In this document: one piece after another, positions 56,987-62,768 of the stretch
Layout of the letters: every line of letters begins with the position of its first letter
How positions within the stretch are numbered: position 1 is the stretch's first letter
NCBI GenBank assembly: GCA_010672585.1
Contig: JAAHGF010000021.1
Span: 68,992 to 132,991, forward strand
Direction: 5' to 3'
Source: Okeania sp. SIO1I7
Lineage (GTDB): Bacteria; Cyanobacteriota; Cyanobacteriia; Cyanobacteriales; Microcoleaceae
DNA length: 64,000 bases
The notes under the pieces: model-generated
Told to the model about the DNA's origin: nothing
The model's database searches: none
The model's input: only the letters and a program-made list of their open reading frames with translations
Position numbers and translations under genes: made by a program

Positions 56987-57317
56987 GATATTTTTAATTC
57001 TAGCTCTTCAGTAGAATCAATTTCTGCCAAATTTTATTCAAAAGCTATATTTTCATTGACATCCTCCCCGGCCTAAAGGCACGGGGATTCCTACCGAGCC
57101 TTAGCTCCTCGGTGGGTTGACACTTCATTTACTGCTGCTACCGTAGGCGGTAGTCTTACGCTTGCCTCCACGTCCGTTTTTTGTCTCGGACTGCCCGCCC
57201 GCGACTAATATATTTATTGCTGCATTCTCATCTCTATCATGTTTTGCACCACAGTTGAGACACTCCCATTCTCGCACCTTCAGGTCTAGCTTGCCACCTT
57301 TAAAGCCACAATTTGAG

Positions 57318-59901
57318 ATTAAAGTCAGTGAAGAAGTCACCCCCTCCACTGCTCTCCAGAACGCAGCATGATAGTTTCCCATCACTGCGCTCCTCAGTAA
57401 AACAGCTATTGTCATTAGTACGTCACCACAAGCATATCTTCAATCCATCTGTAATTTGATAGGATGTCTGATAGTTGTTTGGGCATGGCACTATTACAGC
57501 CAGTTTTGCTGCCAGACCTTTCCAAACTTCCGTCTGTTCTGGTCTTTTCATCATGGCAATGCCGATGGAGTAGTTGCCAGTTTTTGTATTCGTCCTTTCC
57601 GCCTTTTGACTTAAGAATGATATGGTCTAACTCTATTACGTCTCCATCCTTAAAGAACAATCCGCATCTGCGCCACTTCCCTTTTTGCTTTTTCAGCAGC
57701 GATGCTGTTCGCTTCGGCATCTGAGGGTGTTTACCCATTCTTGTACTCCAATAAGCTAGGTTCCCATCATAAGGACTGGCATCGCCTTTAACTTTTATAT
57801 ATTGTTGGCTCTTAAATGAGCCATATTCCACTAAAGTTAAAGGGTTATTTTCCCGTGAGGTAGAAAAGACCCAATTTCTATTCCCTATTTTTTGCCAATA
57901 CTTGTTAATCCAGTGTTCGCCTTTGTTGGGGTGTCTTCTCTTTGCCCATCTTCGGAGTTTCCAGTATAATAAGTAATCCATTCGGTAAAATACCTTTGTT
58001 GGACATCCTATGGAAAAATAGTTACACCATCCTCTGATTATGGAATTGAGGTTTTTGATAAGTGCAGCTTGCGGTTTAGCTTTGTGCTTGTCAATAACTT
58101 CTGTGATTTTGGTGTAATGTTCCTTTTGACTTTCTTTGGATGGGGTGATGATTGTGGAAAAACCTAGTATTCGTTTTTGTGAATCTTTTCCAGATGTATA
58201 TTTTCCTGCTTTAAACTGTCGGATGTTGAATCCGAGAAAATCGAATCCTGGTTTGTGTCCTTCGTGTTCTTGCAGTGTATGGATCAATCTGGTTTTGCTG
58301 GGTTTTAATTCTAAACCCATGTCTTTTAACCATTCAGAAATAACTTCTTGACACCTTTGGACAACGGTTAGACTTTCGTGGATGATAACAAAGTCATCGG
58401 CATATCGAATTAGTGTTACGGATTTTCTTCTATTTGGGAGGCTGACCTTACGTCCGCTTTTTTCTCTCATATCAAAATCTTTGGCAAGTTCTTTGATTCG
58501 ATATTCCATCCCGTGGAGGGCTATATTTGCAAGTAAGGGGCTGATGACCCCACCTTGGGGTGTACCCTCAGATGTTGGAAACAACTCTTTCCCATCCATC
58601 ACACCAGCTTTTAACCAAGCTCGGATTTGTCTCCGTAGGGTCGGATAGGTATTTAATTTTTCTATGAGTCGTTGATGGTTGATATTATCGAAACATTTGG
58701 CAATGTCTGCATCAAGCACATATTTGGCCTTTTGATTTATTGCTATAAAAATTGCTTCGATTGCATCTTGACATGAGCGCCCTGGCCTGAAACCGTATGA
58801 AGACGGTTCAAATCGGGCTTCCCATTCTGGTTCTAAGGCCATTTTTACTAGCCCTTGCAATGCGCGGTCGTACATGGTCGGTATTCCCAAAGGTCTTTTT
58901 TCATCCTTACCTGGTTTCGGAATCCATACTCTCCGAGTGGGTTTTGCCTTTGAGCCTATTTTTAGTTGATTTACCAGGATGACACCTTGCTTTGGGGTCA
59001 GCGACTTAATGCCGTCCACACCTGCCGTCTTCCTACCTTGATTGTCTTGGGTTACTCGACGCACCGCTAAACATTTTGCAGACCATGATTTTGTTAGTAA
59101 TTTTTGGAGTCTACGAACTGTTCTGACATCTCCACGACGTGACGCTTTGTAAATCCGATGAATGCAACTTAAAGACACATCTTTGGGCTTTTCGCCAGTT
59201 GATGTCCCTCCATCCATACATCGGCTTTGGTTCCGTGTTCATAACTTGAGATTGCTACTTGTAGCTTTACATTCCGTATTACCGTGAGTCCGTCTGCATA
59301 TCCTCATCATTACAATGAGGTGTTGGCTTCTGACTCAATCTTTCCCATCTATATACCTACACCTGTGGTAGATTTTCCGTCTTAGCTGACTACTTAATCA
59401 ATCGACCTTGACTAAGAGTAATAAATGGGTTACTTCGTTCCAAATAACCATTGGTTTGTTCCTTTAGGATGATACTCTCCGCCTATATTTGGGAAACACA
59501 TATCAGATTGAGACCTGACCTCTCTGACTCCCTTAGTTTTTGCCTTTTTGGGACTCAAGCGTGTATCAACCTATTTCACTGGTTTTCACTCAAGACGGTT
59601 CGGACGTATCTTTGTATTCCTATCCATGAGAACTTGCTAAGGTGGCATTGACTCCAGGTTGAGTTGCCTTTACCCTTTCATCCCTGCTTCAAAGATTGAT
59701 GGCTAGTCGCTACTTTGAGGGAAAGTGTTTTCACTCCTGTGTCTGGAGGATTGGACTTGAGTGTTCTAGGATACTTACTCGCACCAATATGGTTATTTAG
59801 TTGTCATCTGTTGAGGATTAAAGTGCGAACTCTACCTTATCGGTTACTCAACACAAGCCAATCATCCCCCTATTTCTAGGTTTCGACTGAACGAATCGCA
59901 C
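57318..59901 (-). mobile_element. Group II intron (2,584 bp) with maturase
   Basis: The 5' end GTGCGATTCG (59901 downwards) fits the GUGYG rule and the 3' end ...ACTTTAAT (57318) the AY rule. Removing it rejoins tnpB exactly: ...TCTCAAATTTG + CTCAAATTGTGGC gives TSQI-C-SNCGFKGG. Domain V is at about 57356-57396 (GAGGAGCGCAGTGATGGGAA ... TATCATGCTGCGTTC), and domain VI follows. The ORF (57415-59217) sits in domain IV, and the 680 bases before it hold domains I-III. The intron looks complete and could be active. Confidence 0.93.
57415..59217 (-). CDS. ltrA: Group II intron reverse transcriptase/maturase with HNH domain
   Basis: This 600-residue intron-encoded protein promotes splicing and retrohoming. 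An RT0/N-terminal part (HRIYKASRRGDVRTVRRLQK) precedes finger/palm motifs: AGVDGIKSLTPKQ, RRVWIPKPGKDEKRPLGIPT, YGFRPGRSCQDAIEAI, DADIAKCFDNINH, GTPQGGVISPLLANIALHGM and the active site LIRYADDFVII. The maturase X domain (LKPSKTRLIHTLQE ... FDFLGFNIRQ; GWCNYFSIGC) is followed by a D/En HNH domain (IELDHIILKSKGGKDEYKNW, LLHRHCHDEKT). All key motifs look intact. The ATG at 59217 follows the structured domains; the stop lies just before domain V. Confidence 0.95.
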   Translation of the reverse strand: MDGGTSTGEKPKDVSLSCIHRIYKASRRGDVRTVRRLQKLLTKSWSAKCLAVRRVTQDNQGRKTAGVDGIKSLTPKQGVILVNQLKIGSKAKPTRRVWIPKPGKDEKRPLGIPTMYDRALQGLVKMALEPEWEARFEPSSYGFRPGRSCQDAIEAIFIAINQKAKYVLDADIAKCFDNINHQRLIEKLNTYPTLRRQIRAWLKAGVMDGKELFPTSEGTPQGGVISPLLANIALHGMEYRIKELAKDFDMREKSGRKVSLPNRRKSVTLIRYADDFVIIHESLTVVQRCQEVISEWLKDMGLELKPSKTRLIHTLQEHEGHKPGFDFLGFNIRQFKAGKYTSGKDSQKRILGFSTIITPSKESQKEHYTKITEVIDKHKAKPQAALIKNLNSIIRGWCNYFSIGCPTKVFYRMDYLLYWKLRRWAKRRHPNKGEHWINKYWQKIGNRNWVFSTSRENNPLTLVEYGSFKSQQYIKVKGDASPYDGNLAYWSTRMGKHPQMPKRTASLLKKQKGKWRRCGLFFKDGDVIELDHIILKSKGGKDEYKNWQLLHRHCHDEKTRTDGSLERSGSKTGCNSAMPKQLSDILSNYRWIEDMLVVTY

Positions 59902-60009
59902 CAAATTTGAGAAGTAGGCTCCCAACGACTAATTACTCTAAAATCACGACCATATTTTTCTGCTTTTCCTTCTAGGAATGTCCGGAATTGTCTCCAACCT
60001 AAATCTGAT

Positions 60010-60053
60010 ACCCACCCCTCTTGCTCCCCTCCCAGGAGGGGATGGGGGTGGGT
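60010..60053. repeat. 44-bp palindromic hairpin inserted in tnpB (orientation 1)
   Basis: ACCCACCCC-TCTTGCT-CCCCTCC-CA-GGAGGGG-ATGG-GGGTGGGT: two nested stems. It replaces about six residues between MVKNR and DLGWRQF of TnpB. Confidence 0.92.
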
Positions 60054-60671
60054 TACGGTTTTTAACCATTCCAGAAACGTTTAAATCTTCTAAAACAATT
60101 GTTTGGTTTTCACGAATTATTTCAGTGGATAATTTATGTAGAAAGTCTGTTCTTGTATCTTTCAGTTTTGCATGGAATTTAGCTACTCTAATCCGTGTTT
60201 TTTCATACCTTTTTGACCCTTTAGTTTTATGAGATAATGACTTACTTAACTTTCTTAATTTCTTAATTCGTTTCTTCAGAGGCTTAGGAGCATCAACCTT
60301 TCTACCATCGCTAAATGTAGCAAAAGTTTTAATACCTAAATCTATACCTACTGAATTATCAGTTTTAGGTAAGATTTCTGGTTGTATTTCTACTACAAAA
60401 CTCAAGAAATATCTATGAGCTGAATCTTTGATTACTGTTACTGATGATGGAGGAGCAGGTAACTCTCTTGACCATACAATTTTCAGCTTTCCAATCTTGG
60501 CTAAATAGATTTTATGTTGACCAGCTTTAAACCCTCCCTTTGTAAACCTAGCAGTCTGTTTTGATTTCCTGCTTTTGAATTTAGGAGGTTTAACAGGCTT
60601 ACCTTTTCTCTTTCCTTGAGTTGATTTAAAAAAGTTAGAGCAACGCCTGGTTTAAATCATTCAATGATTGC

Positions 60672-60714
60672 ACCCACCCCCATCCCCTCCTGGGAGGGGA
60701 GCAGAGGGGTGGGT
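60672..60714. repeat. 43-bp palindromic hairpin inserted in tnpB (orientation 2)
   Basis: The reverse complement of the 60010 element with one base missing. It lies between WLSEVS and SLNDLNQA of TnpB and introduces a frameshift and stop. Confidence 0.92.
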
Positions 60715-60990
60715 AGAAACCTCTGACAACCATTGTCTTTCTTCAGTCTTTTTAGCTTGAGTAATAAAAAGCTTTTGTAGCTCTGAATTAGTAGATTTCT
60801 TTTCTCCTGATTTATACCCCTGTTGGCAGAAAGCTAGACTATCATTCCAGACCACACGGACACAGCCAAATAGCTTGGCGCTCTCGGTATTTTTGTCCCG
60901 GCGTTGGATATATACGGTACTTAAATCTAGCTTTCATAACTTGACTTTCAAAATAATAATATAATAACATATTTATAGACAAAAATCAAC

Positions 60991-62086
60991 TAAAAAATCG
61001 CCCTAGAAGGGCGAGGCTTGAAACCCATTTTTCTGGTCATTCAATCAATATTTCTGACTACTGATTGAATATGCAGTTTGAAGTTCTCTGCCGTTAAATG
61101 GGAGATTTTAACGAAGTCAGAAGTCAGAAGTCAGATAGGGGAGCCGTCGGATTGGCGAGGTACAGAAGTTATTTTTGTAACGGGGATTTGAGAAAAGCTC
61201 CAAAAATATTTCGCCTTAAAAGGCGGGGTTTTAGACCCATGTTATTTTGATAATTGGGAGACCCCTTGCCGAATCAAGTATATTCAAAAAAGTGTTTGGA
61301 CAAGAGTGGAGCGATCGCTCATCAGCTATAATTGTCCTTTTTTCTTCGACATACCACAAAGTTGTCAATCTATCAAACTGCGGAAAAGTTAGGAGAGAAA
61401 AATTTGTCATTTCTGGTTGAGGAAAACAAGACTATTTGTCTCTGAAAGAACGAAATAATCAGTATTTGCAGCGTTAAAATTCTCTTCAGCAATACTTACC
61501 CTTGGATTTTTCTACCATTTATAGTATCACACCACGGAGGAAAACGGCTAAACATCTTGAAACTTCGTTAGCTGTATCAGAAAAATTTTCTCCTTTTTTG
61601 TCATAAAATCCTGACAAAGTTAAAAATATTCAAAGGAAAATACTAAAAATTATAAGTAAAAGTTAAGTATTCAACTGATTTTGAAATATAGAAGCTTTTG
61701 AAGCGATCGCTTTATTAAGACGTAAGCATTCAGCGGTCAGCAGTCAGCTATCAGCTATAAGTTATTAAGTCATTATCTTGGAAGAAGGAATTATAGCGCT
61801 GTGCGCAGGCAACAGGCAACAGGCAACAGGCAACAGCGGTGCGACCCCGCGACGACGCCAGCTCGCTTGCGGAACGCTGACCAAGAGAGGGAATGCGCAC
61901 TCCTGTGAGGCAACAGGGGGAATAAATTGCTTATAATATAAGACTTTTAGCTATTTGGCCTCTCCTGCAATTTGTAAATATACCAGCGCTCATTGCTATA
62001 GCTGAATACTAATAGCTGTTTGCGCAGCATTCCGCAGAAAATGCTTACCAAAGGACATGGTTCATTAATGGATAATGGATAATTAC
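60991..62086. other. Repeat-rich spacer, no gene seen
   Basis: It holds AGAAGTCAGAAGTCAG, two CCTTAAAAGGCGGGG-type hairpins with GGTTTTAGACCC, HIP1 sites at about 61310 and 61704, CAGGCAA iterations (61806-61836), a GC-rich patch (GCGACCCCGCGACGACGCC) and one small dispersed repeat. No open frame convinces. Confidence 0.6.
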
Positions 62087-62583
62087 CTTTCCCTTTTAGG
62101 GAGAGGATTGAGCAATATGGATAATTATTGCTCTACTGATTAACTGTCAAAGCCTTTATCTGTAAATATTTGAGGATTTTTAGAGTGAAAAAAGGTGCAA
62201 GGTTTTTGGTCTAAAAAGCTAAAAAAGTTAGAATTCTGAGTAGATAAGGATAGAAAAATCAAGGGATATTTCTTTCTCCTAACTCCTCTAAATTCTGAAT
62301 TCTTTTTGCGAAGCATTCCGCAGGAAATTATAGTAAATACCTTTCCCTAAAAAGGAGAGGATTGAGCAATATGGATAATTATTGCTCTACTGACTAACTT
62401 TCAAAGGCTTTATCTGTAAATATTTGAGGATTTTTAGAGTGAAAAAAGGTGCAAGGTTTTCGGTCTAAAAAGCTAAAAAAGCTAGAATTCTGAGTAGATA
62501 AGGATAGAAAAATCAAGGGATATTTCTTCCTCCTAATTCCTCTAAATTCTGAATTCTTTTTGCGAAGCATTCCGCAGAAAATT
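62087..62583. repeat. 254-bp tandem duplication of R3/R1-derived sequence
   Basis: GAGCAATATGGATAATTATT starts at 62110 and again at 62364. The two copies are nearly identical through GTAGATAAGGATAGAAAAAT and TGCGAAGCATTCCGCAG. The block resembles a diverged 275-bp MITE; its matching right end GCAAACCCTAAATA lies at 62691. A short AAATTCTGAATTCT array follows to 62650. Confidence 0.85.
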
Positions 62584-62768
62584 CTAAATTCTTAATTATA
62601 TCTAACTCTTCTAAATTCTGATAAATTCTTAATTCTAAATTCTGAATTCTATTCTCCTGACTCCTACCCTCACTCATAAGACTTCCATAAGCAAACCCTA
62701 AATAGTTATGGAAAATCAATATTTGCATTTGTAGGTATTATGTGAGCGTAAAAATATTTTATGGAATT

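Follow-up and report, generated by a model that had tools for sequence, protein, structure and literature searches.

A tnpB gene of the filamentous cyanobacterium Okeania sp. SIO1I7 houses a group II intron and two copies of a short palindrome, all within a tnpB-only element of the IS200/IS605 type (Table 1). The stretch of DNA that was analysed comprises 64,000 nucleotides (contig JAAHGF010000021.1 of assembly GCA_010672585.1, positions 68,992 to 132,991) and is called the window; other loci carry L numbers. Comparison with related loci makes it likely that an intron from a clade that homes to TnpB motifs invaded a solo tnpB in which palindrome A had probably done damage before, and that the palindromes represent a second, separate tnpB specialist. 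A preliminary description, made from the sequence alone, had recognised that a single tnpB contains mobile DNA of three kinds, and the analyses of intron, palindromes and element bear this out. Its picture of nesting stands, but where it took the inserts to be simply stacked, the comparison points to a separate specialisation of the intron and of the palindromes on tnpB; the broken frame of this tnpB had gone unstated. Overall, its observation is confirmed and its interpretation partly supported.

The host element and its intron

Few prokaryotic genes are as abundant as tnpB, which is also an ancestor of Cas12. The source genome is very rich in solo tnpB, with at least 150 matches to the TNB domain versus 10 to Y1_Tnp. 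The ends of the window element are defined by alignment to copies that share its edges yet sit in different flanks, and the closest paralog of the same genome, L089, is 92% identical to it. A HUH tnpA was not found in the element, as the 1.4 kb that remain without the intron encode only tnpB, and a simple motif search did not find the ends of the element at the 10 Y1_Tnp loci of the genome. OrfB_IS605 and TNB domains are matched although the reading frame is broken by three lesions, namely an N-terminal frameshift, a stop directly downstream of palindrome A and a further shift where palindrome B lies, as seen in three-frame reading. The window tnpB is thus a pseudogene.

The intron, previously estimated at about 2.58 kb and placed at the first zinc-ribbon cysteine, measures 2584 nt and is inserted between TTTG and CTCAAATTGTGG, exactly at the codon for this cysteine. 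Its 5' end GTGCG and 3' end TTTAAT fit GUGYG...AY, and the flanks joined without it read TSQICSNCG, both as had been predicted. At the same codon the intron is absent from the seven same-genome paralogs that span the site (L089, L090, L091, L092, L093, L095 and L098), which argues against the segment being ancestral to related tnpB genes. Domains V and VI were located by covariance search (Table 1), and the fold of a 95-nt sequence of this region has a z of -5.8, none of 200 shuffles being equally low. The encoded protein, for which YADD and HNH had also been noted, matches PF00078, PF08388 and the group II reverse transcriptase (RT)/maturase family TIGR04416, carries YADD at residue 272 and contains a matched HNH domain. 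Protein, ends and guides (see below) look intact within a dead tnpB, so that a functional TnpB should be dispensable for the intron, which would rely on splicing and mobility of its own. An identity as IStron was rejected, as the intron is of group II and sits within tnpB, rather than being a group I intron fused to the ends of an insertion sequence (IS).

Table 1. Features of the tnpB element and its inserts, in positions of the window
Feature	Position	Strand	Evidence
tnpB-only IS200/IS605-type element, host of the other parts	57056..61039	-	Edges aligned to own-genome copies that have unrelated flanks
tnpB N-terminal piece upstream of the frameshift	60885..60937	-	Three-frame reading; lower end approximate
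Palindrome A, 42-nt copy, common to L089	60673..60714	+	Sequence and paralog alignment
tnpB fragment, OrfB_IS605 part, runs into palindrome B	59944..60405	-	Open reading frame list and domain search
Palindrome B, 43 nt, replaces 15 nt, shifts frame	60010..60052	-	Comparison with empty paralogs
IBS2 TTCTC, 5' exon	59909..59913	-	4 of 5 positions pair with EBS2
IBS1 ATTTG, 5' exon	59902..59906	-	5 of 5 positions pair with EBS1, two as G.U
Group II intron, 2584 nt, GTGCG...AAT	57318..59901	-	RF00029; empty site in 7 paralogs; end-to-end relatives
Predicted EBS2 GTGAA	59585..59589	-	De novo covariation, z 6.7
Predicted EBS1 CAGGT	59513..59517	-	De novo covariation, z 5.6
Intron-encoded RT/maturase with HNH, 600 aa, open	57415..59217	-	RVT_N, RVT_1, GIIM, HNH; TIGR04416
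Intron domains V and VI	57318..57394	-	Rfam RF00029, 53.3 bits (gathering 40)
tnpB 3' exon, zinc ribbon and RuvC-III (DRDENAA)	57125..57317	-	PF07282 match and three-frame reading

Related introns recur at codons of TnpB motifs

Where do the relatives of this intron reside? They were collected by a scan of named genomes (56 loci) and by a search of 388 genomes of the order, with matches in 207 and at most three candidates scored per genome; the best 101 listed places other than the window's own, minus one without a 3' end, gave 100 regions. Boundaries were called on 155 RT-matching loci, and the 117 with both ends, together with L048 delimited by hand, yielded 102 distinct junctions. The close clade, defined by a 3' end of ACTTTAAT or ACTTTACT, holds 55 of these junctions and 36 lineages after collapsing at 93% identity; L043, which shows a 5' end only, is excluded from the 55. 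According to tblastn with hand correction, by which L025 and L028 are counted as RT, tnpB hosts 23 of the 55 junctions, and a 24th (L170) was assigned by motif. Among the 36 lineages, 20 have their home in tnpB, 2 in an RT and 14 in neither, the strict tnpB figure being 18 when L154 (5' exon only) and L170 (motif only) are dropped. L213 stays "other" in the counts although Pfam places tnpB in its 5' flank. When ten junction peptides were compared with Pfam, nine matched PF07282 or PF01385 (L141 and L186 below the curated cut-off) and L222 matched none.

Within tnpB the insertions recur at a few motif codons, for which names were assigned in this analysis from the peptides (the slash marks the insertion point). 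The site TSQxC/S is occupied in the window, L013, L029 and L048, and in L043 as judged from the 5' end alone; DRD/xNAA in L015, L020, L021, L035 and L149; and an NAA-type site in L017, L059, L134, L141, L151, L158, L168, L170 and L174. Single introns sit at EDLNIKG/L of RuvC-II (L016) and DFG/LKTF of RuvC-I (L018), a site called ESYTS is used by L014 and L155, and L154 and L162 mark two further sites. Where a genome has extra copies of the same intron, these occupy sites resembling its tnpB site (L058 and L060 in addition to L059; L156 and L157 in addition to L158). The tnpB of L029 contains a second intron start farther downstream, after DRDENAAI, and the introns of L043 and L048 themselves carry inserts, that of L043 beginning at GFRPG. 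On an RT tree the site labels are clustered overall (23 changes versus a shuffled mean of 34.4; 0 of 200 as low), and ZnC1, DRD and RT_GFRPG are clustered individually.

Several arrangements were seen in passing. Sister introns (L022, L023, L025, L028, L051) are inserted in other group II introns, namely at the YGFRPG codons of their RT genes, and further copies (L024, L027) at sites resembling this one. L134 and L135 form a direct tandem of two intron copies, the second beginning at the 3' end of the first. In the neighbouring intron set, which comprises the remaining 47 junctions, L191, L212 and L213 appear to lie in IS605-type elements, either at the 3' end of tnpB or in the region of the right-end hairpin.

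It could be imagined that targeting is not involved at all, that the introns land anywhere and persist where they do no harm, and that tnpB is simply harmless and abundant. PF07282, counted in 30 genomes of the order, gave 689 matches in 156.5 Mb, which at an assumed 1.25 kb per copy amounts to about 0.55% of the DNA, with a maximum of 1.93% in the window's own genome. At a background of 2% the probability of 20 tnpB lineages among 36 is P = 5.6e-25, a value that serves as a guide only since lineages share descent. Furthermore, 40 host pieces from the 62 junctions not assigned to tnpB or RT genes, a small control in which 25 pieces matched no Pfam family, contained one DDE transposase and one tnpB, the rest belonging to other families; the lone DDE transposase host (L209) holds a second copy of an intron that is also present in tnpB (L208). 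With tnpB enriched to this degree, and with insertions recurring at a few motif codons that the guides match, untargeted landing appears improbable.

Predicted guide pairing and probable movement between tnpB lineages

How would such an intron recognise its site? In a covariation scan that presupposes no structure each intron column was compared with each exon position, the exons being permuted among introns. The strongest covariation connects intron nucleotides 313-317 with exon positions -8 to -12 and nucleotides 385-389 with positions -1 to -5. With one intron per lineage (36) the z values are 6.7 and 5.6, respectively, while the top maximum in 60 permuted sets is 2.83. By position and partner the two segments are predicted to be the exon-binding sites EBS2 and EBS1, which would pair with the intron-binding sites IBS2 and IBS1 of the 5' exon. 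A fully paired EBS1 is found in L048 (CATTT with AAATG) and in L029 (CATAC with GTATG), and by eye the EBS2 of L048 fits AGT and that of the window TCT, which represent the two types of codon for the serine in TSQ. As G.U pairs are allowed, the EBS1 of the window, CAGGT, can match RYYTG, that is TSQ followed by a Val, Ile, Thr or Ala codon before Cys. Folds of 113 nt (z -0.3) and of 27 nt (z +0.4) around EBS1 and EBS2 show no more structure than shuffled sequence and do not agree with each other.

The introns of the window, L029 and L048 are 96.3-96.9% identical over their first 1100 nt, whereas the 150-nt tnpB exons next to them share 59-80%. Movement of the intron from one tnpB lineage to another accounts best for this discrepancy, and most likely related introns home between tnpB genes. 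Had the intron instead entered a single ancestral tnpB and then been carried along by IS transposition, the common TSQxC site of the nearest relatives would follow directly, yet intron identity would not be expected to exceed exon identity so far, the seven same-genome paralogs are empty, and the guide bases change in step with the codons, which leaves vertical inheritance highly improbable.

A palindrome family bound to tnpB

The two palindrome copies of the window had been described as 43/44 bp long; both are there, but they measure 42 and 43 nt. They are oppositely oriented, both break the frame, and compared by eye with paralogs A has 42 nt in place of 13 nt. Allowing up to three mismatches, the 43-mer occurs in 44 copies in the source genome (reversed control 0) and in 9 to 63 copies per genome in all five genomes of the genus, while 10 of 59 family genomes have any; L316, L317 and L318, which do not match the 43-mer pattern, were excluded from the counts. 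Since TnpB queries may contain palindrome peptide, proximity to tnpB was tested with the palindrome masked in queries and targets. In this test tnpB lies in or beside 67 of 73 palindrome loci; by set, 29/30, 24/26, 8/8 and 6/9 have it at most 90 nt away. At the six misses (L260, L287, L304, L322, L323, L327) at least the upstream flank resembles, by eye, the tnpB sites C or F. The test includes 39 of the 44 own-genome copies (of the other five, four are not covered and one lies in locus L321 together with a tested copy), and L283 and L291 are both counted despite near-identical surroundings.

By eye, about ten distinct tnpB positions carry the palindrome, in both orientations: directly before RuvC-I (L302), directly before the EDLNV of RuvC-II (L246, L248, L251), after RuvC-II (L233, L240), after RuvC-III (L245, L249) and in the tail. 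Copies at one site are not independent, and those at B and at C are surely each copies of one insertion. This would suit general genomic repeats of the MITE or REP-like type that only look bound to tnpB due to tnpB amplification, as would similar palindromes away from tnpB (L316, L317), found with a looser pattern, albeit with different arms. The number of positions, the use of both orientations, the 67 of 73 loci and the flanks of the other six, which are like those of sites C or F, speak against such repeats, and this explanation is considered unlikely. Rickettsia palindromic elements were also rejected as the kind of element, with 67 of 73 loci in tnpB and none shown in another gene.

What happens to the host sequence? 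An empty paralog is available for 38 of 56 palindrome loci, of which the best was taken and unaligned flank bases were subtracted by hand. By this measure 27 copies replace 16 nt and 6 replace 13 nt (together 33 of 38), 3 replace 17 nt (L232, L290, L307) and 2 replace 15 nt (L242 and L236, the latter being B of the window). Since 43-16 and 43-13 are multiples of three, replacement preserves the frame, and among the 32 of 72 distinct contexts in which tnpB is alignable on both sides 26 are in frame and 6 shifted. Some in-frame copies (L237, L261, L298, L310) still read a stop, so that keeping of the frame does not result solely from selection for a working protein. By eye, no microhomology was seen in the flanks at palindrome edges of the loci compared with empty paralogs.

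The order of events had been called inferable, which holds in part. Palindrome A is common to L089 and thus probably older than the split of the two copies, and the intron and palindrome B, absent from L089, are later arrivals in the window copy, in either order. L098, which is the locus of L242 and 72% identical to the window element, has B at the same place, where it shifts the frame in the same way, and B may therefore have arrived by conversion. Besides the palindrome, the tnpB paralogs L092, L093, L097 and L098 have further short repeats (about 20-60 nt) at common positions. Elsewhere in the window (62140-62728) short near-identical open reading frames (MLRKKNSEFRG...) lie in a local repeat.

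Proposed course of events

Group II introns generally move as ribonucleoproteins (RNPs) that reverse-splice into DNA, nick the other strand with the HNH domain and copy the RNA by RT. In the present case, the start would be a solo tnpB element, probably already harmed by palindrome A, and the invader a group II intron from a cyanobacterial clade that repeatedly homes to codons of TnpB catalytic motifs. The sequences suggest retrohoming in which the intron RNP would reverse-splice between TTTG and CTCA, guided by pairing of EBS1 with IBS1 and of EBS2 with IBS2, whereupon the HNH domain would nick the other strand and the RT copy the RNA; splicing and present-day mobility are likewise plausible for an intron of this make-up. 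A guide for motif codons would find many targets, since no other DNA of this very numerous gene is as constant. The palindromes would be a separate tnpB specialist that mostly swaps 43 bp for 13 or 16 bp.

A number of observations weigh against this account. As many as 31 of the 55 close-clade junctions lie outside tnpB, including 5 in RTs of other group II introns, so that the clade is rich in tnpB insertions and not restricted to tnpB, and 10 of the 47 junctions of the neighbouring set are in tnpB, which extends the habit beyond the close clade. NAA, the largest site class, is unclustered on the RT tree when taken alone (9 changes, shuffled mean 8.4), as is ESYTS. The EBS2 of the window pairs at just 4 of 5 positions, all five EBS1 positions pair at 6 of 21 distinct TSQxC-type sites in the own-genome loci examined, and AAT, the commonest x codon there, does not fit EBS1. 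The source genome contains only one close copy of the intron, the other matches being partial and 65-81% identical. Moreover, the sample was chosen by similarity to the window intron, and collapsing at 93% lowers shared descent and does not remove it.

A bolder version, which we put forward tentatively and hold to be possible rather than probable, regards tnpB as a dedicated niche with at least two unrelated specialists. One would be group II introns with guides tuned to the codons of RuvC and the zinc ribbon, the other a coding palindrome of 43 bp whose spread is confined to tnpB genes and proceeds by 13/16-bp exchange, perhaps via short-patch conversion or a hairpin intermediate. If so, the palindrome would be a new kind of minimal mobile element.

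Significance and comparison with known systems

One abundant selfish gene, tnpB, here serves as habitat for other selfish DNAs. If its catalytic codons are a standing homing site, they offer a natural series of guides and targets for studying how group II introns are retargeted. The palindrome part is odder than the intron part and lacks a mechanism: how do 43 bp come to take the place of 13 or 16 bp, and why does this happen in tnpB? In the open-licence literature no report of tnpB-confined palindromes or of group II introns homing to tnpB motifs was found among the matches listed, which is weak evidence of absence. Very small mobile repeats of cyanobacteria, the small dispersed repeats of Nostoc (Elhai 2008), are reportedly 21-27 nt long and not tied to tnpB; the palindromes of the window are likewise tiny cyanobacterial repeats, but have 43 bp and are bound to tnpB. 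Rickettsia palindromic elements, in the part of the source available, are similarly protein-coding palindromes inserted in frame, but of about 150 bp and in unrelated genes, whereas the present ones have 43 bp, occur nearly only in tnpB and replace host bases (PMC10969869).

For the intron part, group II introns in insertion sequences are known already, and homing of a whole clade to tnpB motifs goes further. Bacterial group II introns are mostly found outside housekeeping genes, according to the accessible part of a review (PMC4424553), and a survey of prokaryotic group II introns does not mention tnpB or IS605 in its main text (PMC8919778). IStrons, as far as the available text describes them, also join a self-splicing intron with an insertion sequence, but as group I introns that form one unit with the IS, while the present intron is of group II and resides in tnpB as a guest (PMC4227781). 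In cyanobacterial twintrons, such as F3 of Thermosynechococcus elongatus (PMC2882425) and those of Trichodesmium (PMC4649490), an intron likewise lies within another mobile element, to judge from the portions of both sources at hand; by comparison, the sister set described here sits at the YGFRPG codons of RT genes, and L043 (Okeania SIO2C9) has an intron-like start there, inside a relative of the window intron. Closest is the group II intron family F4 of T. elongatus at a conserved site in ISEL1, an element of the IS200 family, since in both cases cyanobacterial group II introns occupy a conserved site in an IS200-family element; the study, in its accessible part, names as mechanisms of proliferation that introns insert into other mobile elements and that their target specificity diverges (PMC2882425). 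There, as far as that text goes, three introns, one IS and one genome are concerned, whereas here many lineages occupy several TnpB motif sites with guides that track the codons (PMC2882425).

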